A DNA stretch of 64,000 bases, taken from positions 1-64,000 of the forward strand of contig JAAWRC010000014.1 in the NCBI GenBank assembly GCA_022800815.1, in the 5' to 3' direction. Below, in pieces: positions 71 through 19,252 of this stretch; position 1 is the stretch's first letter, and each line of letters starts with the position of its first letter. The translations under genes were made by a program, and so were the position numbers. Origin of the DNA: Lachnospiraceae bacterium (GTDB lineage: Bacteria; Bacillota; Clostridia; Lachnospirales; Lachnospiraceae). The notes under the pieces were generated by a model. It saw only the letters and a list, made by a program, of their open reading frames with translations. It had not been told where the DNA came from and made no database searches.

Positions 71-1102
71 ATGGAACGGGAAAAAATCCGCAGGGACGTG
101 ACCATCAAGGACGTGGCGAGACGGGCCGGCGTGGCCATTTCCACCGTGTCGAGGGTGTTAAACGGGCTGGACAAGGTCAGCGAGAAGACGGAGAAAAAGG
201 TGCGGGAGGCCGTGGCGGAGCTTGGCTACGTGCAGAACGCCCTGGCCGTCTCCATGGTGACGGGACAGACGAGGACGATTTTGATGGTGGTGCCGGATTT
301 TACCAACGACTTCAACGGCTCGGTGATCCAGGGGGCGGAGGAACACCTGAAGGCCTGCGGCTATACCATGCTGATCTCCTCTACCAAGGATTTTAAGAAG
401 GAGGACTTTGAGAACCTGTACCGGAGATTTGCCGGGCTGGCCGACGGGATTCTGGTGGTGCAGGGGAGCCCCGACCGGATGGATTACGCCCGCTGGGAGA
501 AGCCCCTGGTGCTGGTGGACGCTTACCGGCCCCAGGAGGATTATTACACCATCGAGATTGACAATGAGAGGGGAACCTTCCTTCTGACGGAAGAGCTGAT
601 TCGGAACGGCCACAGGCGGATCGGCCTTGTCGGCGGCATTCCCGGAGAGTCCGCCAGCGGCAGACGGGTGGCGGGGTATCTCTCGGCCATGGAGCGCTAT
701 GACATCGAGGCGGACCGACGCCTGATGGCCTTTGGAAGTCATTTCGAGGAGACGGGGAGCCGGGCGATGACGGCCTTCCTGTCTCTGCCGGAGGGGGCCC
801 GTCCCACGGGGGTGGTAGCCGTCAACAACCTGACCTGCATCGGCTGCATGAAGGTTCTCGCCGAGCGGGGGATGCGGGCCGGCCGGGAAATCTCCCTGGC
901 GGCCTTCGACGACCACCTGCTGGCCCGCTATTCCGTACCGGGGATCACGGTGCTCGAACGCCCCACCATGGAGATGGGACGGGAGGGGGCGAAAGTGCTG
1001 CTCGCCCTTCTCTCCGGGGAGAAACCGAAAGAAAAGCGGATGATCATGGACAGCCGACTCATCCGGAGGGGCTCCGTGGTAAATAAATTTGTGGAAGCCT
1101 AA
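71..1102 (+). CDS. LacI-family transcriptional regulator
   Basis: The 343-residue protein has the LacI layout. The N-terminal helix-turn-helix and hinge (about residues 9-60) include VTIKDVARRAGVAISTVSRV. A periplasmic-binding-protein-like effector domain follows from about residue 65 and begins TRTILMVVPDFTNDF. The start is preceded by AAGGAGG at a good distance. The effector is presumably a small sugar-like molecule, but no target gene is visible because the window starts just upstream. The outward promoter inside the neighbouring inverted segment points into the 3' end of this gene, so antisense transcription is possible in the present orientation. Family assignment is secure; specificity is unknown. 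Confidence 0.93.
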   Translation: MEREKIRRDVTIKDVARRAGVAISTVSRVLNGLDKVSEKTEKKVREAVAELGYVQNALAVSMVTGQTRTILMVVPDFTNDFNGSVIQGAEEHLKACGYTMLISSTKDFKKEDFENLYRRFAGLADGILVVQGSPDRMDYARWEKPLVLVDAYRPQEDYYTIEIDNERGTFLLTEELIRNGHRRIGLVGGIPGESASGRRVAGYLSAMERYDIEADRRLMAFGSHFEETGSRAMTAFLSLPEGARPTGVVAVNNLTCIGCMKVLAERGMRAGREISLAAFDDHLLARYSVPGITVLERPTMEMGREGAKVLLALLSGEKPKEKRMIMDSRLIRRGSVVNKFVEA

Positions 1103-1122
1103 GTTCTATTTTCTGTATAAAA

Positions 1123-1148
1123 TGTCATAAAGTGGCGTAATTTCAGAC
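1123..1148 (+). repeat. Left inverted repeat of the recombinase-containing segment
   Basis: This 26-bp element starts TGTCATAAAGTGGCGTA and reappears in reverse complement at 2686-2711 with one mismatch. The single difference (A here, C there) is the 18th of the 26 bases, read in this direction. Each copy has a weak internal dyad (GTC..AAA against TTT..GAC), as in tyrosine recombinase core sites. The similarity stops sharply at both ends of the 26 bp. Confidence 0.85.
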
Positions 1149-1186
1149 AAAAAAGACTTATAAATCAAATCAAGCATACATCTATC

Positions 1187-1215
1187 ATTCTATTCCAGTC
1201 ACTTCAAAAAGTCAA
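1187..1215 (-). promoter_or_regulatory. Outward-facing promoter inside the invertible segment
   Basis: On the minus strand there is TTGACT, a 17-base spacer, then TAGAAT: five of six matches to each sigma-A hexamer at optimal spacing. The -35 is at 1210-1215 and the -10 at 1187-1192. Transcription would start near 1180, cross the left repeat and run antisense into the LacI-type gene. After inversion the same promoter would read across the right repeat into the gene at 2763, with a leader of roughly 110 nt. Confidence 0.72.
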
Positions 1216-1471
1216 TCATTCCCAAAAAATCAGGGATTTTAAGGAGGATTCCGCAAAAATCCCAAAGATTCCTAAGGGGTACATCGTCAGCCTATGCCCA
1301 AATATAACGATTCAGAACGAAAAGTCCGGATTGTTTTTGCGTTTCCCTAAAATTTATGGTCATGGTTCTGGTCACCGGGCGGAGCGTTCGTTTTCCACTA
1401 TTTTTATGGCGGAGCTGCATAAAAAGAGGGTCATCTGGTATTGTTAGATGAAAACGAAAGGAGATCTTTTT

Positions 1472-2650
1472 ATGGCAAGGCATGGCGAAAACATCAGAAA
1501 ACGAAAGGACGGGCGCTGGGAAGCCCGGATGATCTGCGGATACCGGGAGGATGGACGGGCAAGATATAAATCCATTTACAGGAAAACCTATGCGGAAGTA
1601 AAGGCAGTGCGGAATCAGATGATGCTGCAGATGCCGTCCGGCGGGGCCCCGGACGCAGAAGGACGCCCGCAGAAGACGAGCGTTGCCGAACTGCTTGCGG
1701 AATGGTTGTCTTCCGTCCGGCAGAATGTCAAGGAATCCACCTATTCCCGTTATCAGGCCATGATCGAAAAGCATATCCGGCCGGAGCTGGGAGCGCTGCC
1801 CCTCGGAGAGCTCTCGGAGGAACTGGTCGACCGCTTCGTGCTGAAAAAACTGAGGCAGGGAAATCTGAAAAGCGGGGGAGGGCTGTCGCCCAAGACGGTG
1901 ACAGGGCTCCTGTCCGTGATCCGCCTGGCCCTGGAATATGGGACCAGAAGGGGGTATGGATGCCTTTCCCCCGTCATGGTCCGCAATCCGAGACAGAGTG
2001 CGCCGAAGATACAGGTTTTCACCCCGGACGAGCAGAGGAAGCTGGAGGCCGTCCTGCTGGACGAGGATACCGCCGTGAGCTTCGGGATTCTGGTAAGCCT
2101 TTACATGGGACTTCGGATCGGGGAGGTCTGCGGTCTGCGCTGGGGGGATTTTGACGGGGAGAACGGCATTTTGTACGTGGGGCGGTCCGTTCAGCGGATT
2201 CCAAATCTTGAATTTGGGACGAGCCCTTCCTTTCGGGCAAAGACGAAGCTCATGATCGACGTTCCCAAGACGGACAGTTCTCTGCGGCAGATTCCGGTCC
2301 CTTCCTTTTTGCTTCCGATATTTAAGCGGCATCAGACGGAATCCGGCTTTTACATACTGACGGCGGGGCCCGTCTGCCCGGAACCGAGGGCCTATTACCG
2401 GAAGTACAAGAAGCTTTTGGAGAAATGCGGGCTGGAGCGCTTCAATTACCATGCGCTTCGCCATACTTTCGCCACCCGCTGTGTCGAAAATGACTTCGAC
2501 GTCAAATCCCTGTCTGAAATTTTGGGACATGCGAACATATCGACGACGCTTCAAAGGTACGTCCATCCGTCCCTCGGACTGAAACGCCGGCACATGGACC
2601 GGCTGGAAACCATTGCGGTTTGTGGTCAGAAATCTGGTCAGGAGGACTGA
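1472..2650 (+). CDS. Tyrosine site-specific recombinase (putative DNA invertase)
   Basis: This integrase-family protein has about 392 residues. An N-terminal arm-binding-type segment (MARHGENIRKRKDGRW) is followed by a SAM-like core-binding domain and a C-terminal catalytic domain. All catalytic landmarks are visible: Arg in GLRIGEVCGLRW, His-x-x-Arg in YHALRHTFATRC, a second His in LGHANISTT and Tyr in LQRYVHPS. The start at 1472 is preferred over 1448 because AAGGAG (1458-1463) sits 8 nt before it. No strong promoter was found upstream, suggesting low or conditional expression. No terminator separates it from the gene at 2763, so read-through is possible. Because it lies between inverted repeats, its likely substrate is its own segment. 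Confidence 0.9.
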   Translation: MARHGENIRKRKDGRWEARMICGYREDGRARYKSIYRKTYAEVKAVRNQMMLQMPSGGAPDAEGRPQKTSVAELLAEWLSSVRQNVKESTYSRYQAMIEKHIRPELGALPLGELSEELVDRFVLKKLRQGNLKSGGGLSPKTVTGLLSVIRLALEYGTRRGYGCLSPVMVRNPRQSAPKIQVFTPDEQRKLEAVLLDEDTAVSFGILVSLYMGLRIGEVCGLRWGDFDGENGILYVGRSVQRIPNLEFGTSPSFRAKTKLMIDVPKTDSSLRQIPVPSFLLPIFKRHQTESGFYILTAGPVCPEPRAYYRKYKKLLEKCGLERFNYHALRHTFATRCVENDFDVKSLSEILGHANISTTLQRYVHPSLGLKRRHMDRLETIAVCGQKSGQED

Positions 2651-2685
2651 CGGAAGGGCCGACCACGGGAAAAGAGGGAGGCCCC

Positions 2686-2711
2686 GTCTGAAAGTACGCC
2701 ACTTTATGACA
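2686..2711 (-). repeat. Right inverted repeat of the recombinase-containing segment
   Basis: Reverse-complement partner of 1123-1148, matching at 25 of 26 positions. It lies 36 bp after the recombinase stop codon and 51 bp before the start of the next gene. The downstream gene is therefore intact in either orientation and only its upstream signals would change. Confidence 0.85.
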
Positions 2712-2762
2712 GGGGAGACCGGCGCATGAGGACGATGGAAAACGGGGGAGGAGGAATGATGC

Positions 2763-3293
2763 ATGGCGGATTATGCAGCTCTTTATTCGGAACCGATGCT
2801 GCTGCGTTTTGATTCTTACGAGGGCAGGATTGCGAGGGGAAGGCTGAAAACCCTTCGCCGTCAGGCACCGTTTCGGTTCGACAGCATGGACCAGATGTTT
2901 ATGATTATGGATGACCTGCTGGATGCGGAAGCGTTTCCGCGGGGGATGGGGGAATACCGGCATCTGAAGCCGGAAGCAGGAGACGGGGGGCCTGCGGGAA
3001 AAGAGGACGGCGCAGCCGGGAAGCCGGTGCAAAAACCTTTCTGCGGGGATATCCTTTTCCGGGAGGCTTCCGGCGAAGGCATCCCGGACGGGGGAAGTCC
3101 CGGGGAGGAGAGGGGACGGATGGCGCCGGGCGGCTTCAAGGGGCAGATGGCGGTCACGGTGCGCAGACGCGAGTACGGCAGTATGCAGGGCACGGTCAAC
3201 GTGAGGGGAGAGAAAACGAACTTTCGGAGTGCGCTTGAGCTCATGCACATGCTCCATGAATATTTGGAGACAAATTTTCAGGCGCATTTCTGA
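2763..3293 (+). CDS. Conserved-looking protein of unknown function, first gene after the invertible segment
   Basis: No named family was recognised. The 176-residue protein has two similar halves separated by a Gly/Pro/Glu-rich linker (about residues 65-125). The N-half pattern is G-x-I-x-x-GR followed by PFRFDSMDQMFMIMDDLL. The C-half pattern is QG-x-V then NFRSALELMHMLHEYL. The product of 4728-5195 shows the same arrangement, so the two are paralogues. GGAGGAGG lies 9 nt before the ATG. There is no signal peptide or membrane segment, so it is probably cytoplasmic. It directly precedes the SARP regulator and would be the first gene read by the flipped promoter, suggesting a regulatory or accessory role. 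Confidence 0.7.
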   Translation: MADYAALYSEPMLLRFDSYEGRIARGRLKTLRRQAPFRFDSMDQMFMIMDDLLDAEAFPRGMGEYRHLKPEAGDGGPAGKEDGAAGKPVQKPFCGDILFREASGEGIPDGGSPGEERGRMAPGGFKGQMAVTVRRREYGSMQGTVNVRGEKTNFRSALELMHMLHEYLETNFQAHF

Positions 3294-3330
3294 GGGGATG
3301 CGGGGAAAAAGCGGAGGGAAGAGGAGAGAG

Positions 3331-4524
3331 ATGGAAAAGCCGGAGGTACTGTACGCCCGGATGTTCGGGAATTTTCAGCTGTTGTACGGCGGACGACCGC
3401 TGACCGGTGAAAAAATGAGAGACACTCATTTTACGGGCCTGATGCAGCTCCTGCTTCACCATGTGGCGGACGGCGTGAGCCGGGATGACCTGGAGGACGT
3501 GCTGCTCGGGGACCGGGACGTGGAGAACCGTCACCAGGCGCTGCAGACCATCGTCTACAAGGCGAAGAGGAAGTTGAAAAACATGGGGCTTCCGGACGTG
3601 AACTACATATTTTTGGAAAAGGGGGTCTATTACTGGACCCGTCAGATACCGGTCAGGGAGGATGCGGCGGAGTTTGACTGCCTGTACCGGCGGGCGTCGG
3701 AGTGCGGGGACGAGGAAAGGCGGCTGGAGCTTTATCTGGAGTCCTGTTATCTGTACAAGGGGGAATTTCTTTCTACCTACACGGCGGTCCTCTGGGCGGG
3801 GACGGAGGCGAGGCGCTACCGCAGGCAGTTCTGCGAGTGCGTGGAGCATGCCGCCTCCATCATAAGGAAGAAAGAGGACTGGGGGCGCCTGGAGAAGCTT
3901 GGAAGATATGCGGCGGAGACGCTTCCGTTTTCCAACTGGGAGAGCCTTGTCATGGAGGCGCTCATGGGACGGGGAAGGTATGAGGCGGCCGAAAAGCTGT
4001 ACGCCGACACGGTGGAGCATTACCTGAGAGAGCAGGGAGTTTATCCTTCGGCGAGGTTTATGGACATGATGGAGAAGCTGGGCGGGCTGATGCAGCACTC
4101 CTGTGCGGTGCTCGACCAGATTCAGAGACGGTTGGAAGAAGTGCCGGAAGGGGAGTCGGGAGGATATGTCTGCACCTATCCGGTATTCTGCGGCATTTAT
4201 CATGCGCTTCTCAGGCAGATGGAGCGGGGCGGGCAGAGCGTCTACCTCATGCTGTGCACCCTGGTGGACGGCAAGGGGAATCCCGTCAGGGAGGGGGAGC
4301 GGAAGGAGGAGATGACCGCAAGGCTGCAGGAGGCGGTCAGGGCCTCCGTGCGGCACGGGGACGTCATCAATCCCTATGGCAGCGGGCAGTTCCTGATCCT
4401 TCTGATCAACATTACCAGGGAGGACTGCCGGATCATAGAAAATCGGATCAATCAAAAATTCATCGTCGGAAGACAGCGCGCAGGCGTGCAGTATCATGTG
4501 AGCAGCGTGATCTGCGAAGCGTGA
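3331..4524 (+). CDS. SARP/BTAD-type transcriptional activator
   Basis: Residues 1-95 resemble the OmpR-like winged-helix domain of SARP regulators (ARMFGNFQLLYGGRPLTG, with NRHQALQTIVYKAKRKL as the recognition region). About residues 105-240 form an alpha-helical BTAD region (LYLESCYLYKGEFL; AEKLYADTVEHYLREQG). The C-terminal ~130 residues (PVFCGIYHALLRQM to VINPYGSGQFLILL) recall a degenerate nucleotide-cyclase/GGDEF-like fold without a GGDEF motif. The start at 3331 is chosen because it follows GAGGAGAGAG and begins at the domain; an upstream in-frame extension overlaps the previous gene. A strong terminator follows, so this is a separate regulatory unit whose likely target is the pilus promoter near 4671. 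Confidence 0.82.
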   Translation: MEKPEVLYARMFGNFQLLYGGRPLTGEKMRDTHFTGLMQLLLHHVADGVSRDDLEDVLLGDRDVENRHQALQTIVYKAKRKLKNMGLPDVNYIFLEKGVYYWTRQIPVREDAAEFDCLYRRASECGDEERRLELYLESCYLYKGEFLSTYTAVLWAGTEARRYRRQFCECVEHAASIIRKKEDWGRLEKLGRYAAETLPFSNWESLVMEALMGRGRYEAAEKLYADTVEHYLREQGVYPSARFMDMMEKLGGLMQHSCAVLDQIQRRLEEVPEGESGGYVCTYPVFCGIYHALLRQMERGGQSVYLMLCTLVDGKGNPVREGERKEEMTARLQEAVRASVRHGDVINPYGSGQFLILLINITREDCRIIENRINQKFIVGRQRAGVQYHVSSVICEA

Positions 4525-4727: not shown

Positions 4728-5195
4728 ATGGAGACATCCGGACGCTATATCGGGACGCCGAACGGGATCGTGTTGTGCGTCGACCGGAACGATGGCGGGA
4801 TCGTCGAGGGCCGCATGTTTCACGGATACAGTGAGACGGGGATTCCCTTCCGGGGATGTGAAAACATCGTAAAAGAGGCCGAGGGGCTTTTCAACGCACT
4901 GGGGTTCCCCCACGTGGGGACCGGCGACAGGGATATAGATGGAAACGTGCACAGATTCCGGAAGAAGGAGGGGATGGCAAGGGTCATGGGAGACGAGAAA
5001 TTGTTGGAACAGCATGGGGACCTGGGGACGTTTGTCATTCGGGTGCAGCACAGACAGCACAGCAGCTGGCAGGGCAGGGTCACCGACTTGGATAAGGACC
5101 AAACCGTGTATTTCCGGTCGGCGCTGGAACTGATCAAGATCATAGACGGGGCCCTGGACCGGGCGGAGCGGACAGAGGACGGGGAAGGAAAGTAA
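4728..5195 (+). CDS. Unknown protein, paralogue of the 2763-3293 product
   Basis: The 155-residue protein has no recognised family. Like the product of 2763-3293 it has two halves: GGIVEGR followed by IPFRGCENIVKEAEGLF, and QGRV followed by YFRSALELIKIIDGAL. The shared FRSALEL ending is the clearest link. It lacks a signal peptide or membrane segment and is charged, so it is likely cytoplasmic. It is the first gene of the pilus structural operon, 5 nt before the next gene. Each transcription unit of this island therefore begins with one paralogue, which suggests a role in regulation or assembly rather than a structural subunit. Confidence 0.68.
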   Translation: METSGRYIGTPNGIVLCVDRNDGGIVEGRMFHGYSETGIPFRGCENIVKEAEGLFNALGFPHVGTGDRDIDGNVHRFRKKEGMARVMGDEKLLEQHGDLGTFVIRVQHRQHSSWQGRVTDLDKDQTVYFRSALELIKIIDGALDRAERTEDGEGK

Positions 5196-5200
5196 AGAGT

Positions 5201-5806
5201 ATGGCGGAGAAGGAATTAAGGAAATTGAATCGAAGAGAGCTTCTGCAGATGCTCCTCGTACAGTGCGAAGAATCGGAACGGCTGCAGCGGGAACTGGACG
5301 AGATTCAGGAGCAGTTTGACACCATGTCGGAGAGTTACGGGCGCCTGAAGTGCAAGCTGGACGTGAAGGACGAACGGCTGAACCAGAAGGATCGGCGGAT
5401 CGGGGAGCTTGCGGCGGAGGCGGAAGCCCTGAGGAGCGAGATCGAAGAACTGAAGCGGACCGGGCTGGCGGGGACTGCGGCGGAGGCGGCGGACCGGATC
5501 GGGGCCATCTTCCGGGAGGCCCAGAGGGCGGCGGAGGAATATCTGGCGGGCGTCCGGAGAGGAACCGCGGAGGGAAAGCCGAAGGTTCCGCTGGCGCTGC
5601 CGGATAAAGGGGAGAGGAAGCGGATTCCCTTCGAACAGGCGGGGAGGCTTGCCGGGCTTCGAAAAAAGCAGCCGGTGCTTCGCCGGGGACAGACCGCTCT
5701 GACGGATTTTTCGAAAGCGGGGGTCTCGGAGCGGGCGGGGGAGGCCGTGACGGTGGAAACGGAGTTTGCGTCCCTTGAATTGGTATCCGGTGACCTTTAT
5801 GGATAA
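5201..5806 (+). CDS. Coiled-coil cytoplasmic protein of the pilus operon
   Basis: The 201-residue protein has an N-terminal helix (LRKLNRRELLQMLLVQ) and a long heptad-rich coiled coil over about residues 20-90. Its C-terminal third is basic and Gly/Pro-rich. There is no signal peptide or transmembrane segment. The stop codon overlaps the start region of the next gene (ATGGATAA), implying translational coupling to the signal peptidase. Similar coiled-coil proteins accompany sortase/signal-peptidase clusters in Lachnospiraceae, in my recollection, but have no established function. A scaffold or regulatory role is only a guess. Confidence 0.65.
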   Translation: MAEKELRKLNRRELLQMLLVQCEESERLQRELDEIQEQFDTMSESYGRLKCKLDVKDERLNQKDRRIGELAAEAEALRSEIEELKRTGLAGTAAEAADRIGAIFREAQRAAEEYLAGVRRGTAEGKPKVPLALPDKGERKRIPFEQAGRLAGLRKKQPVLRRGQTALTDFSKAGVSERAGEAVTVETEFASLELVSGDLYG

Positions 5807-6392
5807 AGAGGAACAGACGGAAGCAATAAAGGTACCGCCGATCGAGCAAATACGGGAGGAGCTTGCCAGGGAAGAGGCAAAGCACGGATTTCGGAAAACC
5901 ATCGGAAACATCGCCGTGGCCCTTCTGGTGGCGGCGGCCGTCACCGCACTGGTGGCGACCAGGCTCTTCGTGCTGATCCGGATCAACGGAGGCAGCATGG
6001 AGCCGACGCTGGCGGACGGCGAGATCATATTTCTCCGCCAGACGAAGGAGATCAAAACGGGGGACCTGGTGGGCTTTTATTACGGCGGCCGGGTGCTCAT
6101 AAAGAGGGTCATCGCAAGCGCCGGGGACAGCGTCGACATGGGGCAGGACGGAAGCGTGTACGTCAACGGAAAAAAGCTTGACGAACCTTATGTGAAGGAA
6201 AAAAGCCTGGGGAAGTGCGAGCTGGAGTTCCCCTACGAGGTGCCGGAGGGGATGAGCTTCGTGCTGGGAGACAACCGAGCCATATCCATAGACAGCCGGA
6301 TCAGGTCGATCGGGTCCGTGGAGAGGGACCAGATCGTCGGCAAGGTGGTATTCAGGGCGTGGCCATTATCACGCATGGGAATTATGCGCTAG
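5799..6392 (+). CDS. lepB: Signal peptidase I
   Basis: A type I signal peptidase of 197 residues with one N-terminal transmembrane helix (about residues 39-57). The family boxes are present: nucleophile Ser66 in GGSMEPTL, general base Lys102 in VLIKRVIAS, and the downstream box FVLGDNRAISIDSR. The start at 5799 is preferred over 5766 because it lies at the coupled ATGGATAA overlap and avoids a long unnatural N-terminus. It sits immediately upstream of the large tip protein and is probably dedicated to processing pilus subunits. A second peptidase, of the SipW type, closes the same operon. Confidence 0.9.
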   Translation: MDKEEQTEAIKVPPIEQIREELAREEAKHGFRKTIGNIAVALLVAAAVTALVATRLFVLIRINGGSMEPTLADGEIIFLRQTKEIKTGDLVGFYYGGRVLIKRVIASAGDSVDMGQDGSVYVNGKKLDEPYVKEKSLGKCELEFPYEVPEGMSFVLGDNRAISIDSRIRSIGSVERDQIVGKVVFRAWPLSRMGIMR

Positions 6393-6409
6393 GAAGGTGA
6401 GAAGAGAAG

Positions 6410-9400
6410 ATGCAGAAACTTTTAAGAGAGTACTTGGATGACCTGAACAAAAAGCAGAAAAAGAGCAGGAAAGCCGCAGTCGCTGCCCTTCTTCTGGTCG
6501 TGCTGGTGGTCGGGAGCGTGGCGGGCATTCTGGCACGGCACGGCGTGGCCATGACCGGGACGGCGAAATGCGGACTGGAAGAGCATGCGCACGGTGCGGA
6601 ATGTTACACGAAGACATTATTCTGCGGGATTTCCGAGAGCGAGGGCCATACCCATACGGATGCCTGTCTTTATCCGGAGGAACTGGTTTGCGGGCTGGAG
6701 GAAAATGAGGAGCACGCCCACACGGACGCCTGCTACGCAAGGCCGGAAGGGTTCGCCTGCGGTCTGGAGGAGGGCGGGGGGCACGTCCACACGGATGCAT
6801 GCTACACCGAGGAGCTGACCTGCGGAAAAGAAGAGCATGTCCATACGGACGCCTGCTACATTGATGTGGAAGCGGACGTGGAGGAGCAGACGACCTGGGA
6901 TAACCAGTATGCGGGCACGGAATGGAAGGGCGTCTGGGGCGAAGACCTGGTGACGGCGGCCAGGGCGCAGCTTGGCTATAAAGAAAGTGTCAACAACTAT
7001 GCCGTGGCGGAGGACGGAAGCCACAAAGGCTATACCCGTTACGGCCAGTTCGTCGGCGATGTCTATGCGGACTGGGATGCGGCGTTCGTGAATTTCTGTC
7101 TCCACTATGCGGGTCTTCGGGACTCCGGCCTCTTCCCGGCGGCGACCGATGCCGCCGCATGGCAGGAAGAGTTCCGGAATGCGGGCGGGGCCAACGGGGC
7201 CTACCTGGCGGAGGCGGGCTATGCGCCGGCGGCCGGGGACCTGGTGTTTTTCCGAAGGGAAGGCGAAGAGACGGAGACCCAGATGGGAATCGTTTCTTCC
7301 TGTGAAGAAGCGGGAGGCGTCATCCACGTCATCGAGGGCAACAGCCAGAACGAGGTCAGGGAGAACGTCTACGACGCAAATGACGGCCGGGTCACCGGGT
7401 TCTTAAAGATCACGGAGCTGGAAACGGCATACAAGGCGGCGGGAGAAAACCCCGGGGAGACGACGGAATCGGTTCCGGCCGGGGAAACGGAGAATGACGG
7501 AAACGATGCGGTCGGAGAAGACGGAGAAATCCCGGCCGACGTGCTGGAGGAGCTGGAGAACTCCCCGGCGTACGAGGCTTCTTACGAGGACGACATGGGA
7601 ACCATCCACGTGGCGGCCGGCGAGGGAACCGTTCCGGAAGGGGCGGAGCTGTCCGTCAGGAAGATCGAGCTGGTCATGACGACGGCGGACATGGATGACG
7701 ACGAGGCGGCCGAAGCGCAGGAGATCAACGACCAGTACGAGCTCACGGCCAGGAAACTGTCGGAGGAAAGCGAAAAAAATAACACGACGCTGGAGGGATT
7801 TCTGGCGTACGACATCTGCTTCTTGGTGGACGGCGTGGAGGTGGAGCCCAACGGTCCGGTGAAGGTGACCATGGACTTCCGCGAGGCCGTGAAGCCGGAG
7901 GGCGTGTCCGAAAACGCCGCCGTGGCCGTGAACCATCTGAAGGAGGACGAGGCGGCCGAGGATGGGATCGTGGTGGAGGACCTGACCGAAAAGACGGCGA
8001 CCACGATTACGACGGTTGAAGAGGACGCCACGGTGGAGAAGGTCGAGCTGGTGACGGAGACGTTCTCGGTGTTTACGGTGAGCTGGATGTTTTCGGGAGA
8101 GCCATATGGTGTACCGATGAACATCATCTGCGTGGACGGGAAGGGGAACCTTCTCGATCCATCACAAAGTTTCCATCTGGAACGAACTGTGGAATATGGA
8201 ATAATGTATGACCTTGAGAGTACGCTCGCCTTGGGGACCATTACCAAGCAGGTCACGTCGGAAGGAAAGACGGAAGAGGTCATTTATGCGCCGGGGTCAA
8301 TGACGTTATGCGTCGGGGAATCAGGTCAGATCAATGGCCAGTGGTACTATGATCCCCGGGGAGGAGAAAAAGGAGAGGTTAAAAAAGTTCAATTCAGCAG
8401 GGATGGAGGGGTTACGTTTTATTCTGCCGACGGAAAAGCGTCGGGAACCTGCACAAAAATCGATCTGATGTTGGGATCCTGGTTTTTAAAAGTGGTTTAT
8501 AACCCAGCGAGCCTGTCCATAGAGGATCAAATTGAAGAAAGCGGCCAGCTTGTGCCGGTATATTCGGGAACCATAGCAGAAGGGGCAAAGGTCCAATATG
8601 TATGGGAAAAAAGCGTAAATGGCGGGGCGTATGAGCCGGTCGAGCGGGATCAGTACAGCAACGGACATTATAACGTGGCGGAGGATGGGACGTGGCTCAA
8701 TGTCGCACTGGACGGCGGGGCGCTCAATGATGAGCGGAAAAGCGTGGCATACACAGTCGAATTGCTGGTTGACGGCGTGTCAAAAGGAAAGTCGGCACCC
8801 CGCCCTATCCCGTATTACAATGAGGTGCGGAACGGAGGCTTTGAGAATCCGGTCACGGCGAATTATGAGCAAGTTGGCGTTGAGGGTGTTGAAGGGTGGA
8901 ACACAACGTCAAAAGACGAAGACCGAAAGTATTATGCGATTGAGATAGCCAGAGTTACCGATTATAAGATAGATCCGCATTATGAATATCCCATACCTGA
9001 TTTTGTGGCAGCGGAGGGAGACCAGTTTGCGGAACTGAATGCTGGAACTGTAGGCTCTCTTTACCAGGACATTCTTGTGGAGAGAGGGACGTTACTGCAC
9101 TATTCCTTTGCCCACAGGGCGCGCTCCGCAGGTCGGAATATCAATGCGGAAGACAAGATGTATTTGCTTATTGTCCCCACGTTCGTTGCTGAAAATGGAA
9201 TAAAACATCAGTGCGAACATACGGACCATAGCGATGGCAAGGGTGGAGTAATCGATACCCAGGCGGAAGTGGATTGCCTGATAGCACATAGGAATGAGAC
9301 GAATGCTGATGGCGAGCCGCTTTATCCGGGAATATTTTTGAGGGAGTGCACATCCAGGGCTGACGGATGGACGACGTACAGCGGCGACTACATGCCGACT

Positions 9401-10537
9401 TACAACCTGAACAGGTTCTTCTTTGTATCGGCTAAATCGTCTCCGACCATGGGAAATTTCCTGGACAACGTTCATTTCAGCCAGTATTTGCCAAAGCCGG
9501 TAGAAGGGAAATTTAGCTTTTACATCGACAAGGCGATTGTGGGGATTGAGGATTTTGATAATCTTGCTGAAGAACAGCTGAAAGCGGAGCTTGGGAAACT
9601 GAACCTTGAGTTTGCTGTCGAAATTAAGGATCAGGATGGAGAATCCGTTGATCCGTCGAAATTGATAACGGCAAATGGGAGATCTATACCGTCCACGTTG
9701 AGTGCGGCGGATATGACCTGGACGCAGAATTCTGACAAAAGCTGGGTCGGCGCAGCGGCCTTTGACAATGTTACACTACCGAATCCTGACGATAAGTATA
9801 CGATTTCCGTAACTGAAAGCTGTACGGAGCCTGCCGGTTACACACGCAATACGAGTGTGAAAATAACGGAGTCGAAAACGATGTCGGCAAGTGATGTACC
9901 TGCTGACAGCTCGAACGCCATGACGGGAAGCGTTACGGTTCAGAAAAACGCCAGCCGAGGACTGTATTTCACGAACACCTATACGAAGCGGCCGGCTGAG
10001 CCTGAGTACTCCTACACTTGGCAAGTGGTAAAGTGCAGTTCCAGCGACAATGGCTTAATGCTTCCAGAAGCGAAATTTACACTGAAAGACTCAAGCGGTA
10101 CGGAAGTGGCGACCGGCGTGTCGGAGGAGGATGGCACGGTCAGGTGGACTGCGAAGGACGTGGACTCCGCCGTAGATCTCTCCGGGTTGAGCGGAAGCTA
10201 TACCTTGGAAGAAACGAAAGCGCCGGATGGATACAGGCTCAGCGATAATCCCGACGGGAACAGCTGGAGCCTGATGTTTAAGGAGAACGGGGAATTGGAT
10301 ACGGCCTCATCCTCCCAACCGAACCAGAACAATTTGGTGAGTATTGATGGTAACACAGATGAATCCGCAAAAACGAAAGATTATGTAATACTCATTCAAA
10401 ATGACGTTGTATTGTACGAACTGCCCAGCACGGGCGGCATCGGAACAACTTGGTATCTGATCGGCGGCACGCTGCTGATGCTTGCCGCGGCGCTGATCTT
10501 ATATAAAAACAAGTGCGGGGAGGTGTTGGGGAGTTAA
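6410..10537 (+). CDS. Giant LPXTG-anchored pilus tip/adhesin protein
   Basis: At 1375 residues this is the largest protein of the island. It has an N-terminal signal-anchor (about residues 20-42). Five Cys/His repeats follow (residues 54-150, pattern CG-x(5-9)-H-x-H-x(3)-C). A CHAP/NlpC-like domain comes next (about residues 180-335), then acidic linkers, Ig/lectin-like regions, an SpaA/Cna-B-type domain near the C-terminus (YTLEETKAPDGYRLSD) and an LPSTG sorting signal with hydrophobic tail. In the CHAP-like domain the usual Trp-Cys is Trp-Asp (Asp223) and the usual His-Val-Gly-Ile-Val is Gln-Met-Gly-Ile-Val (Gln291), so catalysis looks lost. Position before the major pilin and its size suggest the tip adhesin. 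Confidence 0.85.
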   Translation: MQKLLREYLDDLNKKQKKSRKAAVAALLLVVLVVGSVAGILARHGVAMTGTAKCGLEEHAHGAECYTKTLFCGISESEGHTHTDACLYPEELVCGLEENEEHAHTDACYARPEGFACGLEEGGGHVHTDACYTEELTCGKEEHVHTDACYIDVEADVEEQTTWDNQYAGTEWKGVWGEDLVTAARAQLGYKESVNNYAVAEDGSHKGYTRYGQFVGDVYADWDAAFVNFCLHYAGLRDSGLFPAATDAAAWQEEFRNAGGANGAYLAEAGYAPAAGDLVFFRREGEETETQMGIVSSCEEAGGVIHVIEGNSQNEVRENVYDANDGRVTGFLKITELETAYKAAGENPGETTESVPAGETENDGNDAVGEDGEIPADVLEELENSPAYEASYEDDMGTIHVAAGEGTVPEGAELSVRKIELVMTTADMDDDEAAEAQEINDQYELTARKLSEESEKNNTTLEGFLAYDICFLVDGVEVEPNGPVKVTMDFREAVKPEGVSENAAVAVNHLKEDEAAEDGIVVEDLTEKTATTITTVEEDATVEKVELVTETFSVFTVSWMFSGEPYGVPMNIICVDGKGNLLDPSQSFHLERTVEYGIMYDLESTLALGTITKQVTSEGKTEEVIYAPGSMTLCVGESGQINGQWYYDPRGGEKGEVKKVQFSRDGGVTFYSADGKASGTCTKIDLMLGSWFLKVVYNPASLSIEDQIEESGQLVPVYSGTIAEGAKVQYVWEKSVNGGAYEPVERDQYSNGHYNVAEDGTWLNVALDGGALNDERKSVAYTVELLVDGVSKGKSAPRPIPYYNEVRNGGFENPVTANYEQVGVEGVEGWNTTSKDEDRKYYAIEIARVTDYKIDPHYEYPIPDFVAAEGDQFAELNAGTVGSLYQDILVERGTLLHYSFAHRARSAGRNINAEDKMYLLIVPTFVAENGIKHQCEHTDHSDGKGGVIDTQAEVDCLIAHRNETNADGEPLYPGIFLRECTSRADGWTTYSGDYMPTYNLNRFFFVSAKSSPTMGNFLDNVHFSQYLPKPVEGKFSFYIDKAIVGIEDFDNLAEEQLKAELGKLNLEFAVEIKDQDGESVDPSKLITANGRSIPSTLSAADMTWTQNSDKSWVGAAAFDNVTLPNPDDKYTISVTESCTEPAGYTRNTSVKITESKTMSASDVPADSSNAMTGSVTVQKNASRGLYFTNTYTKRPAEPEYSYTWQVVKCSSSDNGLMLPEAKFTLKDSSGTEVATGVSEEDGTVRWTAKDVDSAVDLSGLSGSYTLEETKAPDGYRLSDNPDGNSWSLMFKENGELDTASSSQPNQNNLVSIDGNTDESAKTKDYVILIQNDVVLYELPSTGGIGTTWYLIGGTLLMLAAALILYKNKCGEVLGS

Positions 10538-10715
10538 GGGATGAGAAAGCTTTTGGCGGCCCTTGCACCGCAAAGCGAATGCGCAAAAGGCGCATCAGGG
10601 AAACTGTGAGTTCTGTGTGAGGCCCCCCGCAGATGTCCGGCATTCGTCCGGCGTCCTTGGGAGGGCGCACATGCAACTAAAAAGGCAAAGTCTATCAAAG
10701 AAAAGGAGAAGAGAC

Positions 10716-12374
10716 ATGAAAAAAATGAAAAAAGTGTTTGCCATGTTGTTAGCATTGGCAATGGTACTGGGAATGTCCATGACGGCATTCGCAGCGGATG
10801 AACCGCTTTCGACAACAAACACGGCGACGGCATCCGTGTCAAACGTGGAAACGGGAGCTACCGTATATGCGTACAGGATCGTAGAACCTGATTATAAGAC
10901 AGAGAGCGGCACAATTACGGGCGTTAAGGGATACAAAGCGGCTGCTGACATTCCGGAAACGATTACTAATCCCGCATCCGTAACCGGCGATGAGGTAATG
11001 AACATCGTGAAGGCAGAGGGTTGGAATGCTTGGAAGGAGACCGCTGAGAAAGCGGAGCTTAGGGATCCGGACAATGACGGCACCTATACCGCTGACCTTA
11101 AAGCGGGCAGCTGGATCGTAATTGTTGTCCCTGGCGAGAAGAGCCAGAAGATGTACAATCCCATACTGGTCAGCAATTACTATACGACGGCCAATTCGAA
11201 TGGAGCCGTTGTAGAGGGTGGAGAGATAAGCGCAAATAATGAGTGGGAACTGGCTGGCGGAACCTCGGTTGCGAAATCACAGGCAGTCAGCATTGGAAAG
11301 ACAATTGTGGGCACGACTCCCGTTGTTGATGGAGAGAAAGGCCAGACAGAAGAGCTGGGTGACGATCAGAAATTCAACGATGTGGCGGTTGGCGATATCG
11401 TGACATTCCGGCTCAAGACCAATATCCCTCCCTACAGCCCGGCCTACACCGATGTGAAGGTAAACGTCAAAGATACCTTGACCCAGGGCCTGAAACTGGC
11501 GGATGACCCGAATGTTGTGGTGAAGCTCAATGGCACGGAGATCGAGGCAGTCGGCACGGAAGGCGATGACAATGGTGTAAAGCACTATACGCTCACGGCA
11601 GCGGCGGGCAGCCAGACGCTTACGCTTGAGCTTGACTCTGCTTATGCTCTTGCGCATCCGGGCGCAGAGGTGACCGTGACCTATGATGCGGTGTTAACTG
11701 AGAGTGCATTCAACTATGACGCAAATGAGAACAAGGCCGAGCTGGAGTACACGAAAGATACCACCGGCGGCACCGAGACAACGGAGGGTTCCACGACGAA
11801 GACCTATACCTTTGCATTTGGCGTTGGAGTTGGCGGATCATCGAAGGAAAATGTAGAAATCCTGAAAAAGACCGGTACGGAGACCGTGAACGGAGTGACC
11901 GAGGCAGTCGACCTTGACGGTGCAAAGTTTACTTTGACAAATGATGATACCGAAAGAGTGTACAATGGAGAGTCCGCTGATGGCGGTAAGCTGAATTTCA
12001 GTGGTTTGGATGCGGGAACTTATACCCTCAAAGAAGTAGAGGCACCGGAGGGATATACGTTAAGTGATAAGACGTACAAGGTAGTGATTACGCCCACCTA
12101 TGTCGGGGATGAACTGGTAGAATATAAGGTAGAGGTTGGGGAAACGGAAGACACTCTTGAAGTGATTGCTGATTTTAGGTTGAATGCTGCAGATAAAACC
12201 ATTACGAATCAGGTGACGGATCCCGAGCCTTGGGATATTCCGAACACCAAGCTCACCTCCCTTCCTTCCACCGGCGGCATCGGCACGACGATCTTTACCA
12301 TCGCCGGCTGCCTGATCATGGTGGTCGCCGCAGGCCTGTTCTTCGCAAGCCGCAGGAAGAGCGCAGCGAAATAA
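10716..12374 (+). CDS. Major pilin, SpaH/EbpB-type isopeptide-forming LPXTG protein
   Basis: The 552-residue precursor starts at 10716 after AAAGGAG; the longer upstream frame has no suitable ribosome site. A signal peptide (MKKMKKVFAMLLALAMVLG, cleavage after AFA) leads into an N-terminal pilin domain. A fimbrial isopeptide domain (about residues 195-350) follows, then an SpaA-type domain whose conserved E-box is YTLKEVEAPEGYTLSD. The C-terminus carries LPSTG, a hydrophobic helix and RRKSAAK. The length and repeated Ig-like domains fit a polymerised backbone pilin and substrate of the sortases downstream. A hairpin follows the gene and may set its excess over the sortases. Confidence 0.9.
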   Translation: MKKMKKVFAMLLALAMVLGMSMTAFAADEPLSTTNTATASVSNVETGATVYAYRIVEPDYKTESGTITGVKGYKAAADIPETITNPASVTGDEVMNIVKAEGWNAWKETAEKAELRDPDNDGTYTADLKAGSWIVIVVPGEKSQKMYNPILVSNYYTTANSNGAVVEGGEISANNEWELAGGTSVAKSQAVSIGKTIVGTTPVVDGEKGQTEELGDDQKFNDVAVGDIVTFRLKTNIPPYSPAYTDVKVNVKDTLTQGLKLADDPNVVVKLNGTEIEAVGTEGDDNGVKHYTLTAAAGSQTLTLELDSAYALAHPGAEVTVTYDAVLTESAFNYDANENKAELEYTKDTTGGTETTEGSTTKTYTFAFGVGVGGSSKENVEILKKTGTETVNGVTEAVDLDGAKFTLTNDDTERVYNGESADGGKLNFSGLDAGTYTLKEVEAPEGYTLSDKTYKVVITPTYVGDELVEYKVEVGETEDTLEVIADFRLNAADKTITNQVTDPEPWDIPNTKLTSLPSTGGIGTTIFTIAGCLIMVVAAGLFFASRRKSAAK

Positions 12375-12440
12375 CAAAATCGGTTTCACAAGTACATCGC
12401 TATGACGAAGTGCGCCGCTACACGTGCTTATGTTCATAGA

Positions 12441-12479
12441 GGGATTTCCCGGGGCCAGGAGGCCCTGGGAAGAAATCCC
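12441..12479 (+). terminator. Strong hairpin between the major pilin and sortase genes (attenuator-like)
   Basis: GGGATTTC (12441-12448) pairs with GAAATCCC (12472-12479), and CCGGGGCC (12449-12456) pairs with GGCCCTGG (12461-12468) through one G-U pair. A three-base bulge and AGGA loop complete the hairpin. No T-tract follows, so partial termination or 3'-end protection of pilin mRNA is more likely than full termination. Confidence 0.6.
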
Positions 12480-12538
12480 CAAATCAGGAATGAGAATTAA
12501 CGGATCTGTTCGAAGATACAACTGCAAGGAGAGTCCGG

Positions 12539-13519
12539 ATGAAGAAAAAAGCAGGAGTCATTTTCATAACACTTTTATTTTTAGCCGGCCTCTCCCTGCT
12601 GCTGTATCCGTTCGTTGCGAACCAGTGGAACAACTACAGGCAGAGACAGTTAATCAGCAGCTACGACCACACCGTGTCCGACCTGGAGGCGGCGGGCGGG
12701 GTCGATTACGACGGGGAGTGGGAGAGGGCGCACGCCTACAACCGGGCGCTGCTCCCCAGCATCCTGCCGGATTCCTTCGCCGTGGCGGAGGCGTCGGGGC
12801 GGGGAGAGGAATACATGTCCTGCCTGAACATTGTCGGAAACGGCGTCATGGGGACGGTTGAGATCCCGAAGATCGACATCACCCTTCCCGTCTTCCACAC
12901 CACGGAGGAGGAGCTTTTACAGATGGCGGCGGGCCATCTGGAGGGAAGCTCCCTTCCCGTGGGAGGGGAGGACACCCATGCGGTCATCTCCGCCCACCGG
13001 GGGCTGCCCAGTGCGGCGCTGTTCACGGACCTCGACAAGATGGAGGAGGGGGACCACTTCCTTCTGCACGTTCTGGACGACACCCTCTGCTACGAGGTGG
13101 ACCAGATCACCGTCATCGAGCCGGAGGACACCGGCGCCCTGGCGGTGGAGAAGGGGAAGGACCTGGTGACGCTCCTGACCTGCACCCCGTACGGGATCAA
13201 CAGCGAGAGACTTCTGGTGCGGGGCCATCGGGTGCCCTATGTGCCGGAGGAGGTGGCGGAAGAGAAAGTGCCTTTCGGCAACATGAGCCTCCATACCAAT
13301 TACCTTCTGTGGGTGGTCGTGGGACTCCTGATCACCGGGCTGTTCAGCCTCCTTCTGTACGGGAGGGAGAGAAGACGGCGACGGAAGGAAAAAGCCGGGA
13401 AGCAGGGGGCGCCGGAGGAAAACCCGGAGCGGGAAAATAGTCCGGAAAATAAAACCCCTTCGGAACCGGATGAGACTCCGGAATCAGAAGAAGTTCCGGA
13501 ATCGGAGGAGCGGCCATGA
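12539..13519 (+). CDS. Class C sortase (first copy)
   Basis: This 326-residue pilus sortase has an N-terminal transmembrane helix, the sortase barrel and a C-terminal transmembrane helix (LWVVVGLLITGLFSLLLYG), the two-helix topology of class C enzymes. Catalytic residues are His153 (ISAHRG), Cys215 (LLTCTPYG) and Arg224 (ERLLVRGHR). A long Glu/Pro-rich cytoplasmic tail follows the second helix and is unusual. The gene overlaps the second sortase by four bases, implying coupled translation. It should polymerise the LPSTG pilins encoded just upstream. Confidence 0.95.
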   Translation: MKKKAGVIFITLLFLAGLSLLLYPFVANQWNNYRQRQLISSYDHTVSDLEAAGGVDYDGEWERAHAYNRALLPSILPDSFAVAEASGRGEEYMSCLNIVGNGVMGTVEIPKIDITLPVFHTTEEELLQMAAGHLEGSSLPVGGEDTHAVISAHRGLPSAALFTDLDKMEEGDHFLLHVLDDTLCYEVDQITVIEPEDTGALAVEKGKDLVTLLTCTPYGINSERLLVRGHRVPYVPEEVAEEKVPFGNMSLHTNYLLWVVVGLLITGLFSLLLYGRERRRRRKEKAGKQGAPEENPERENSPENKTPSEPDETPESEEVPESEERP

Positions 13520-14409
13520 AACGGAAGCTTTCAACCATCCTCTTCGCCCTGTTGTTCCTTGCGGGGCTTGGGACACTCACCTACCCGACCATTTCCGACC
13601 AGTGGAATACCTACCGGCAGTCCAAACTCATTTCCACCTATGACCGGGCGGTGAGCGAGATGAAGGAGGAGGATTTTGCCGAGGCCTGGGAGACGGCGAG
13701 GGCCTACAACCAGGCCATGGGCGCCAATCAGATCGGTGCGGACGTGTTCGGCGTCGACGGGGAGGGGGACATCCGGGACACGGAATACTGGAAGGTGCTC
13801 AACGTCACCGGGGACGGGATCATGGGCTACCTGACCATCCCCAAGATCAACATCAAGCTGTCCATTTATCATGGAACGGCGGAGGACGTCCTGGACACGG
13901 GCGTCGGCCACATGAACGGGACGAAGCTTCCGATCGGGGGCGAGGACAATCACAGCGTCATGTCGGCCCACCGGGGCCTGCCCAGTGCGAAGCTGTTCAC
14001 GGACATCGACCAGCTGGGGCGGGGCGACCGATTCTACCTCCACATTTTAAACGAGGACCTTGCCTACGAGGTGGACCAGGTGCATCCCATGGTGGATAAG
14101 GACGACTTGGACACCCTGGAGGAGGCCATGAAGGTGGAGGCGGGACGGGATTACGTGACATTATTCACCTGCACCCCCTACGGGGTCAACAGCCACCGGC
14201 TTCTGGTGCGGGGCCACCGGGTCCCCTACGACGGGGAACTGGAATCCACGCCGGTGGAATCCATGGTGCAGGCGATTCAGAACTATTACATGCTGTATCT
14301 GCTGATCGGCCTTGGCGTGACGGTCCTGCTGATTCTGATTCTGCGCCGGGTCATGAGAAGGAAAGGGAAGCGGACAGACAAAGAGAACTGTGAGGAGGGA
14401 AAGAGTTGA
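13516..14409 (+). CDS. Class C sortase (second copy)
   Basis: A 297-residue class C sortase similar to its neighbour, with N- and C-terminal membrane helices, His152 (MSAHRG), Cys219 (LFTCTPYG) and Arg228 (HRLLVRGHR). It lacks the acidic tail of the first copy. Tandem class C sortases commonly divide labour between backbone polymerisation and addition of tip or base subunits; which does what cannot be read from sequence. Its end overlaps the TTG start of the next gene by four bases. Confidence 0.95.
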   Translation: MKRKLSTILFALLFLAGLGTLTYPTISDQWNTYRQSKLISTYDRAVSEMKEEDFAEAWETARAYNQAMGANQIGADVFGVDGEGDIRDTEYWKVLNVTGDGIMGYLTIPKINIKLSIYHGTAEDVLDTGVGHMNGTKLPIGGEDNHSVMSAHRGLPSAKLFTDIDQLGRGDRFYLHILNEDLAYEVDQVHPMVDKDDLDTLEEAMKVEAGRDYVTLFTCTPYGVNSHRLLVRGHRVPYDGELESTPVESMVQAIQNYYMLYLLIGLGVTVLLILILRRVMRRKGKRTDKENCEEGKS

Positions 14410-15482
14410 AGATCAGTAAGAGAATGAGGAAATGGTGCGTGCCGGTCCTGGCGGGACTCCTGGCGCTCCCCTGCCTGAACCTGTTGAGGAGCGAGGCGGC
14501 GGGCGGGATCGATCTTGATGAGCCCTGCAGCCTCACGGTTTCCGTGAACATCGGTGCGGCGGGGACGGCGGACGGCAACCAGGCCTACCTGGAGGATTTC
14601 AACCGGATGGAGATCCCGGTGGCAGCGTACCGGGTGGCGGACGTGGACGTGACCGGACAGAAGTTCACCCCCGTGGAAGGCTTCGAGGGCATGGATTTCG
14701 ACGGCCTGAGCCCGGAGCGGGACGTGACGGCGGCTCGCTGGGCGGAATTGGCAAAGGAGGCGGACGGTCTGCGGACGGAAAACGGGGTCAGAACGGACCG
14801 GGTTGCGACTGTCAAAAAGGAGGAGGGGGATGTGGTGAACGCCCAGGCGAAGATCACCGGCCTGACACCCGGCCTGTACCTGGTGGTCCCGGAGACTGTG
14901 TATAATCCGGAATATACCGTTCAGTACCAGTTCACTCCCTACCTGACGGCCCTGCCCTCCAGTCTCTACACCCTGACGGGGGAGGGGTCCGACGAGTGGG
15001 TTTATGAGACGGAGATCGGCCTGAAACCGGAGGCCGTGCAGCAATACGGGAACCTGAACATCGTGAAACACCTCTCCACCTACAATCCGGCCCTGGGCCA
15101 GACGACGTTCGTGTTCGAGCTCGTGGGCAGGGACGCTTCCGGCACGGTGCGGTATGAGGACTACGTGGCCATGGATTACCGGACGGGCGGGGATCAGACG
15201 CTCACCGTCACCGGGATTCCGGCCGGCTGCGAGGTGACGGTCACGGAGGTGTATTCCGGAGCCAGCTACGAGATTGTCGGTTCGGACACGGATGCGGCGC
15301 ATGTCTGGTCGGAGCAGGCGATCGCAGCCGGGGTGCCCGGCGCACAGACGGCGGCGGTGGACTTTACCAATGAGTACAATGGCGGAAACCGGGGCGGTTA
15401 CGGAGTGACGAACCATTTTGAAGCGGACGGCGAGGACGGCTGGACCTGGGAGAATCCCACGACTCCGTTGCCCTCAGAATAG
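14406..15482 (+). CDS. Secreted pilin-like minor subunit without sorting signal
   Basis: The 358-residue protein begins at TTG (14406) after GGAGGGAAAG. It has a signal peptide (cleavage near SEAAGG), an N-terminal pilin-like domain ending GLYLVVPETVYNPEY and a second beta-domain (TTFVFELVGRDASG to CEVTVTEVYSG) resembling DUF5979/DUF7601-type pilin domains. No LPXTG motif or C-terminal membrane helix is present; the protein ends in PLPSE. It may be a pilus-associated or base component, or the sorting signal may have been lost. Translational coupling to the sortases supports a pilus role. Confidence 0.75.
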   Translation: MKISKRMRKWCVPVLAGLLALPCLNLLRSEAAGGIDLDEPCSLTVSVNIGAAGTADGNQAYLEDFNRMEIPVAAYRVADVDVTGQKFTPVEGFEGMDFDGLSPERDVTAARWAELAKEADGLRTENGVRTDRVATVKKEEGDVVNAQAKITGLTPGLYLVVPETVYNPEYTVQYQFTPYLTALPSSLYTLTGEGSDEWVYETEIGLKPEAVQQYGNLNIVKHLSTYNPALGQTTFVFELVGRDASGTVRYEDYVAMDYRTGGDQTLTVTGIPAGCEVTVTEVYSGASYEIVGSDTDAAHVWSEQAIAAGVPGAQTAAVDFTNEYNGGNRGGYGVTNHFEADGEDGWTWENPTTPLPSE

Positions 15483-15497
15483 AAAGGAGCTGCAACA

Positions 15498-16022
15498 GTG
15501 ATGAAGGGAAAAAAGAGTGACAAGAAGCTGTTCGCGGCAGCGGCCGTAGCCCTTGGAATGACGCTTTTTGCAGGGCTCAGGGACGTCTCGGCGTATTTTA
15601 CCACCTACGTGTCGGCGGGCGGCAGCCAGGTGGTGCGTCTGGGAGCGCAGACGGAGATCCACGAGGAAGTGAGCCAGATGACGAAGCACATTTCCATCAC
15701 CAACACCTCCGAAACCGGTGCGTGCTTCGTGCGGGTGAAGGCGTTCCATGACAGCCGGTTCACGGTGGATTACGACGGTGCGGGCTGGACTGCGGGTGAG
15801 AAAGGGTACTGGTATTACGGCGAGGCCCTTGCGCCGGGGGAGAGCACCGGCGTCCTGGATGCGAAGATAGGCGTGCCGGAAGGCTTTGACCGGGAGGAAT
15901 TCAACGTCGTCGTCATTCAGGAGTGCGCACCCCTGGTTTATGACGCAGACGGCAATCCGACGGCGGACTGGGATGCGGTTTATACGGATACCGACTATCG
16001 GGGAGAGGAGGTCCGTGACTGA
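15498..16022 (+). CDS. TasA/camelysin-like secreted protein (first)
   Basis: The 174-residue protein has an N-terminal hydrophobic signal ending DVSAYFTTYVSAGG, similar to SipW-dependent signal peptides in which an Ala-x-Phe stretch follows the cleavage site. A beta-rich domain with the motif ISITNTSETGACFVRVKAF follows. It may start at GTG 15498 or ATG 15501; the GTG has the better spacing from AAGGAG. It is the first of three adjacent SipW-type substrates, and sipW closes the operon. By analogy with TasA/TapA/CalY it could form or decorate extracellular fibres. Confidence 0.72.
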   Translation: MMKGKKSDKKLFAAAAVALGMTLFAGLRDVSAYFTTYVSAGGSQVVRLGAQTEIHEEVSQMTKHISITNTSETGACFVRVKAFHDSRFTVDYDGAGWTAGEKGYWYYGEALAPGESTGVLDAKIGVPEGFDREEFNVVVIQECAPLVYDADGNPTADWDAVYTDTDYRGEEVRD

Positions 16023-16759: not shown

Positions 16760-16773
16760 AGGAGGCGGGAGAG

Positions 16774-17613: not shown

Positions 17614-17614
17614 G

Positions 17615-18691: not shown

Positions 18692-18694
18692 TCC

Positions 18695-19222: not shown

Positions 19223-19252
19223 GGCATTCTCTGAGGGTTTTTATACAAAATC

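Follow-up and report, generated by a model that had tools for sequence, protein, structure and literature searches.

A tyrosine recombinase gene enclosed by its own inverted sites beside a putative sortase-pilus operon: a probable self-contained promoter inverton in a Lachnospiraceae bacterium

The window, by which we mean the whole stretch of 64,000 nucleotides that was analysed, opens with a gene for a LacI-family regulator, which is followed by a tyrosine recombinase gene enclosed by an inverted repeat and then by a long run of genes that includes a putative pilus operon (Table 1). The two arms of the repeat (1123-1148 and 2686-2711) are 26 nt long, complementary at 25 of 26 positions and spaced by 1537 nt, and the recombinase is the sole gene found between them, the conjugation genes of a conjugative transposon or ICE being absent. 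A chance repeat was ruled out: allowing up to three mismatches, the site has two copies in the window against a mean of 0.00 in 100 shuffles, and two in the whole of the window's own genome (G000; 3.4 Mb, 75 contigs, 97% complete), that is, nowhere besides the pair itself. A sequence-only reading of this DNA had described a 25/26 inverted repeat around a complete tyrosine recombinase that adjoins a pilus island, and both parts of that description are borne out, the first by an intact reading frame and a repeat unique in the genome, the second by the LPXTG/SpaA pilins and sortases encoded downstream. The co-directional genes from 2763 to about 19210 presumably form a single operon.

Table 1. 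Positions of the element, its sites and the flanking genes in the window
Feature	Position	Strand	Remarks
LacI-family regulator gene	71..1102	+	Opposite flank from the pilus genes
Whole invertible segment (putative)	1123..2711	.	1589 bp
Left recombination site (IRL)	1123..1149	+	11-bp arm, 5-nt centre GGCGT (1134-1138), 11-bp arm
Putative strong promoter of sigma-A type, directed outwards across the left site	1187..1215	-	-35 TTGACT 1215-1210, -10 TAGAAT 1192-1187
Putative arm-type site, GGTCA-N7-GGTCA direct repeat	1358..1374	+	In the leader
Tyrosine recombinase, Tn916/Tn1549 integrase type	ORF 1448-2650	+	Likely ATG 1472 (our reading); 392 aa
Putative arm-type site, GGTCA-N7-GGTCA	2624..2640	+	In the recombinase 3' end, about 62 bp ahead of the right site
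Right recombination site (IRR)	2685..2711	-	Same 5-nt centre (2696-2700), inverted; arm mismatch 2694 versus 1140
Putative target operon, first gene, no assigned function	2763..3293	+	
BTAD/SARP-like regulator gene, putative pilus operon	3331..4524	+	Start 3331 is our choice; the ORF opens at 3229
Remainder of the putative target operon	4728..19210	+	Two unknowns, then pilus genes; further proteins mostly without family
Signal peptidase, putative target operon	5766-6392	+	
LPXTG/SpaA pilins, putative target operon	6410-10537, 10563-12374	+	
Two sortases, putative target operon	12539-13519, 13516-14409	+	

The recombinase contains the domains PF14659 and PF00589 with no internal stops, and R215, K266, H327, R330, H353 and Y363 (numbered from the ATG at 1472), which we take to be its catalytic residues, are invariant in both of our family alignments. 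No serine recombinase as in a Hin-type switch was met with here, the window enzyme being a tyrosine recombinase by domain search. Its closest solved structure is the Tn1549 integrase, both by sequence (E 3e-30) and by fold (E 1.3e-12), and the predicted model (mean pLDDT 88.9) has an N-terminal domain of three strands (8-10, 16-24 and 30-37) and one helix (40-53), together with an additional strand (258-263) in the catalytic domain between the strands at 239-244 and 272-275, the strand numbering being our own reading. A three-strand-one-helix N-terminal domain that binds arm sites, and an additional beta strand that follows strand 2 and precedes strand 3 in the catalytic domain, are given as features of the IntTn916 subgroup in the accessible part of PMC8138268, and the Tn1549 integrase substrate is described, in the excerpt available of PMC5871717, as an 11-bp inverted repeat, a 5-bp crossover region and a second 11-bp inverted repeat, with crossovers of 5-7 nt also mentioned. 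Matches to AP2 are weak, occurring in 6 of 16 family members, with an E of 0.04 for the window member. Judged by sequence, predicted fold and site plan, the window enzyme is an integrase of the Tn916/Tn1549 type.

Of 299 genomes sampled from the host's family, 62 have a relative of this recombinase at E <= 1e-50; in the host genus 9 of 11 genomes have one at E <= 1e-30, and in the host phylum a profile finds one at E <= 1e-60 in 42 of 398 sampled genomes, each tally counting the window's own genome; a single-protein scan of genome contigs returned no relatives, while an alignment-based scan did find them. Two sets of loci, obtained with a common query and consisting of different loci, were searched for flanking inverted repeats scoring at least 17. 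Set 1 comprises the window and 47 fetched stretches, mostly the best-scoring relatives, and 37 of these 48 loci have such a repeat (10 shuffles each, maximum 14, although one shuffle, of L013, reached 17 in an earlier pass); the 11 loci without one include L099, left out of the count because its repeat is unrelated. Set 2 comes from a scan of named genomes with at least 591 stretches and at least 581 relatives, of which the best 80 were kept and five duplicates dropped, leaving 75 loci, 53 of them repeat-positive (5 shuffles each, maximum 15). Taken together, 90 of 123 loci are repeat-positive and 33 are not, so that not every relative is such a switch; since the relatives were picked by their similarity to the window recombinase these percentages are not population frequencies, and in all family counts related loci are not independent, with one assembly per species.

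As a control, integrases from viral contigs were found to have the repeat in 3 of 39 cases below 36% identity and in 3 of 6 at or above it (51 of 79 loci are given, loci with short flanks having been dropped). On three viral-collection contigs with more distant integrases (L212, L215 and L216), short stretches of some 290-330 bp downstream of the gene differ in direction from contig to contig, and these are possibly switches with the recombinase outside. Phage and plasmid records contained no match at 60% identity or more; among five plasmid loci inspected, one from Vescimonas fastidiosa MM35 (L275) has a clear 29-bp inverted repeat, one from Enterococcus has a doubtful repeat scoring 18, and three score below 17. 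One locus of a congener (L072, genome G306) is identical to L166 across 9000 bases, and in genome G114, where all four recombinase relatives have an internal stop, two of the loci (L105 and L107) have well-kept sites and similar right-hand DNA. Rfam at gathering scores gave no match in positions 1-20000 of the window or at loci L076-L079.

When the repeats of the family are aligned on their symmetry, they resolve into an 11-bp arm, a 5-nt centre and a second 11-bp arm. Among the 37 repeat-positive loci of set 1 there are 33 distinct centres and zero mismatches between the centres at the two ends of one locus: positions -2 to +3 have 0 mismatches each, against 13.5-26.3 expected if the ends were independent, and the outer arm positions often differ between the two ends. 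In set 2 the centre is identical at both ends in 51 of 52 loci, with 50 distinct centres (one row was dropped for length). The repeat search is itself biased toward matching centres; a matrix of the arms only, which is blind to the centre and was trained on the same 37 loci, recovers both sites in 34 of them (missing L091, L092 and L106), with identical centres in 34 of 34. Of the repeat-negative loci, L096 yields both sites with identical centres under this matrix, and L081, L085 and L109 yield a single site, L081 having in addition a weaker matching partner. A centre that is specific to the locus, yet the same at both of its ends, is to be expected if strands are exchanged there. In the window the two 5-nt centres, the presumed crossover, are the same at both ends, and the lone mismatch (1140 against 2694) falls in an arm, 4 nt off the middle of the site, at a position where related sites vary likewise; the earlier suggestion that this mismatch lies at or near the crossover is therefore not upheld.

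A second kind of repeat is found further inside the element. Without any matrix, a 5-letter tandem word common to both ends was found in 20 of 37 loci (shuffles: mean 0.62, maximum 3), with spacings of 10-13 and GGTCA at 12 as the commonest form. A matrix built on set 1 (xGTCA-N7-xGTCA) finds the repeat in the leader of 30 and in the tail of 29 of 39 loci, namely the 37 repeat-positive ones with L081 and L096 (shuffles 1.5% and 0.8%), and when it is applied to set 2, in the leader of 45 and the tail of 36 of 53 loci (shuffles 2.3% and 0.6%). The tail repeat lies 54-71 bp, mostly 62-69 bp, ahead of the right site. Thirty-five of the 90 loci have exact repeats at both ends, and in 51 of their 70 half-sites the letter in front of GTCA is the same at either end; 5000 permutations gave a mean of 29.6 and a maximum of 47, and shared descent contributes to this agreement. 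In the window, the two GGTCA-N7-GGTCA repeats would be bound by the N-terminal domain of the recombinase.

The putative promoter of the window (TTGACT-N17-TAGAAT, with a spacer of 17 nt) points in the direction opposite to the recombinase, and four genus orthologs have a counterpart at the matching place, 59-63 bp from the outer end. According to a promoter table that is our own approximation, the outward promoter has a mean excess of 6.3 bits over shuffles in the 37 loci of set 1, against 0.5 towards the recombinase, and outscores every one of 10 shuffles in 46 of 53 loci of set 2, against 6 of 53 recombinase-ward, so that a recombinase-ward promoter gives no general signal in either set. The -10 box lies at a median of 53 bp from the outer end in set 2 (quartiles 52-65), and an outward promoter above shuffles is found in 76 of 86 repeat-positive loci versus 12 of 27 repeat-negative ones; a convincing one is missing at L092 in set 1 and, among others, at L179, L180 (a pilus locus), L182 and L185 in set 2. 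Hairpin-plus-T terminators are found behind the recombinase at 32 of 90 loci on the sense strand and at 33 of 90 on the other, against 33 of 450 sense shuffles; this over-representation suggests that some members of the family are insulated, though not the window element, for which neither of two rules gave a clear terminator behind the recombinase and the OFF state may accordingly leak. As the promoter faces away from the recombinase, in the window it aims away from the pilus operon, and the assembled orientation is probably the OFF state of that operon, with promoter activity and ON/OFF polarity both predicted from the DNA. It may be added that transcription from the promoter would, in this orientation, cross the LacI-type gene in antisense.

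Both orientations are found among relatives. When 98 target proteins were clustered, 13 families had at least two members, and 7 of these 13 occur on either side of the element. A sister element in the window's own genome (L077) is flipped relative to L076 with both flanks exchanged, and relative to L078 and L079 as seen on one flank. At L121, with a recombinase 41% alike, homologues of the BTAD regulator (68%), the signal peptidase and the pilin lie on the promoter side, which is the flipped state with respect to the window, and the order there is promoter, site, GGAGG and BTAD start. At L180 and L094 the pilus genes are on the recombinase side, with a further outward gene on the other side of L180. 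Two candidate comparisons were set aside: L093 and the IMG/VR loci L196/L197 have a shared neighbour on opposite sides (80% over 554 bp), but L196/L197 are without a paired repeat (best score 12), and a flank match between L091 and L098 was not counted as a flip, the match being 1-4 kb away.

The same inverton with opposite polarity, the pilus operon being ON now through read-through from the recombinase gene and the outward promoter making an antisense RNA or serving the other flank, seems improbable to us. It has in its favour the place of the adjacent outward genes, which among the 90 repeat-positive loci are on the recombinase side only at 36 (and three more at contig edges) versus the promoter side only at 17 (two more at contig edges), with 20 loci having them on both sides and 10 (two more at contig edges) on neither, in counts from a simple gene caller that overlooks some outward genes, e.g., at L068 and L071, both OFF by neighbourhood reading; the want of a clear terminator after the window recombinase likewise fits it. 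Against it, the only consistent promoter signal in the family is the outward-left one, the terminators over-represented behind the recombinase would block read-through, and at L121 promoter, site, GGAGG and BTAD start stand in this order in the sequence.

It also appears unlikely that the window locus holds a once active switch that is now locked OFF. All five genus copies of the locus (the window and L068-L071) are in one orientation, OFF, so that the search for a flipped segment in related genomes, proposed in the sequence-only reading, succeeded among relatives at large but not among these copies, and the two window sites differ by one arm mismatch. Five out of five would, however, arise in about 6% of cases at even odds, and an orientation bias would suffice too; the recombinase is uninterrupted with its invariant residues kept, and the centres are identical, other loci varying more in their arms than by the single mismatch of the window.

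That the repeats are instead the transposon ends of an IS-like unit that jumps, rather than an invertible pair, is very unlikely: the enzyme is of conjugative-transposon type, G114 holds four relatives and one element lies within at least 8.4 kb that are 99.99-100% identical in Butyricicoccus, Blautia, Agathobaculum and G222, but each element end is a complete arm-centre-arm site and not a half site, target families occur on both sides, the genus orthologs retain the BTAD-pilus side in 4 of 4 cases and the LacI side in two (L069 and L071) at a recombinase identity of 63-67%, which looks vertical, and the identical stretch far exceeds the element in size, so that a larger carrier has moved. In that stretch (L093, L140, L141 and L143; L140 is from Butyricicoccus pullicaecorum DSM 23266 and L141 from Blautia glucerasea MSK.21.93, the others being from Agathobaculum massiliense and one further genome) the element and about 8.4 kb around it are all in one orientation, and to judge by this identity it is a recent transfer on a larger carrier.

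The window element, whose unique sites, centre rule, promoter-like and arm-like motifs and occurrence in both orientations among relatives can be read from the DNA directly, is thus very probably a self-contained phase-variation promoter inverton with the recombinase inside, as had been proposed from the sequence and as L077, L121 and the 7 of 13 target families found on either side make the best reading. In this promoter inverton, the integrase-type tyrosine recombinase would bind both 27-bp sites at their 11-bp arms, its N-terminal domain probably engaging the GGTCA-N7-GGTCA arm sites close to either end, and strand exchange would take place in the 5-nt centres. Given the inverted orientation of the sites, the outcome would be a flip of the 1.6-kb segment with the recombinase gene in it, as may be expected to happen in the window's strain. 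With the left end abutting the operon, the promoter would drive the BTAD regulator together with the pilus genes (ON), and in the assembled orientation it would run into the lacI side, leaving the pilus operon OFF or fed by read-through only. Random flipping would then lead to mixed populations of piliated and bare cells.

The targets of other loci are diverse: among 30 neighbours scanned were TadZ, FHA proteins, helicases, a sugar transferase and response regulators, some being without family, and with targets so diverse the cassette is not tied to pili. Where outward genes lie on both sides, as at 20 of the 90 repeat-positive loci (e.g., L087, L111, L158 and L174), the switch might choose between two operons. 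At eight loci (L077, at G000:C32:73000-87500, with L076, L078, L079, L073, L104, L111 and L112) a related cassette adjoins a TnpB/Cas12f-like protein of 447-479 aa, on the promoter side in four and on the other side in four. PF07282 was found in 5 of 5 of these proteins scanned with Pfam (two below the curated cut-off) and PADLOC assigned Cas12f to 4 of 4 scanned; at what we presume to be the three RuvC acidic positions, the residues are apparently replaced in 8 of 8, which resembles the nuclease-dead TldR type.

An enclosed recombinase had been regarded as a departure from most known invertons, and while it does lie inside here, this is not unprecedented, Hin and PsrA being earlier cases. The hin gene lies within its invertible segment. 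In Salmonella, Hin inverts a segment of about 1 kb between two 26-bp sites and thereby turns a promoter, much like the window element, so far as the accessible part of PMC3798978 describes it; Hin/hix nevertheless differs in having a serine recombinase and a Fis enhancer in place of a tyrosine integrase and putative arm sites, and the window promoter, unlike that of Hin/hix, faces away from the recombinase gene. The pneumococcal psrA gene encodes a tyrosine recombinase and lies, like that of the window, within the locus that it inverts, but according to the available text of PMC7096588 it is coding segments of hsdS that are shuffled and not a promoter. The RecV switches of C. difficile (flg and cwpV) are alike in their tyrosine recombinase, inverted repeats of about 21 bp, occurrence in Clostridia and link with surface structures; as far as the consulted portion of PMC5386303 goes, they differ in that the flg segment which inverts measures 154 bp and RecV serves more than one switch, whereas the window recombinase is inside its own segment.

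The integrases of Tn1549 and Tn916 are, within the parts of their descriptions at hand, the nearest to the window enzyme in sequence, fold, N-terminal domain, extra strand and 11-5-11 site plan, but they move conjugative elements between sites, whereas the two complete inverted sites of the window enclose the integrase gene alone, together with a putative promoter, and in elements of the window type the centre is fixed within a locus, unlike in Tn1549/Tn916. A 2025 survey, in the portion accessible to us (PMC11892184), gives a Clostridia inverton group 139 (33 invertons, 32 of them from Clostridia) linked to invertase group 35, whose tyrosine recombinases are described as nearby; some of these may be enclosed, and the groups may overlap the window recombinase family. 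Titles and abstracts, in which subscription journals are thinly covered, yielded no arm-binding integrase enclosed in its own inverton. On balance we favour the view that the Clostridia have domesticated an integrase lineage of the Tn916/Tn1549 type, turning it into portable promoter cassettes that invert themselves and that have core as well as arm sites. The private 5-nt crossover of each would allow several of them to coexist in a genome without cross-talk, and they would have been recruited in front of unrelated operons, such as those for sortase pili, Tad pili, helicases, response regulators and apparently nuclease-dead TnpB-like proteins.

Common inverton-search tools have a length limit, and with a segment of about 1.6 kb short-range searches could miss such switches. 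The present results suggest that many integrases now labelled as mobile-element genes may be local switches, and they provide a rule for reading assemblies, in which 11-5-11 sites, an outward promoter with its -10 box about 53 bp from the outer end and GTCA arm repeats together indicate such switches and their likely ON or OFF state. For the bacteria themselves, they point to phase-variable pili and other phase-variable surface systems in gut Clostridia.
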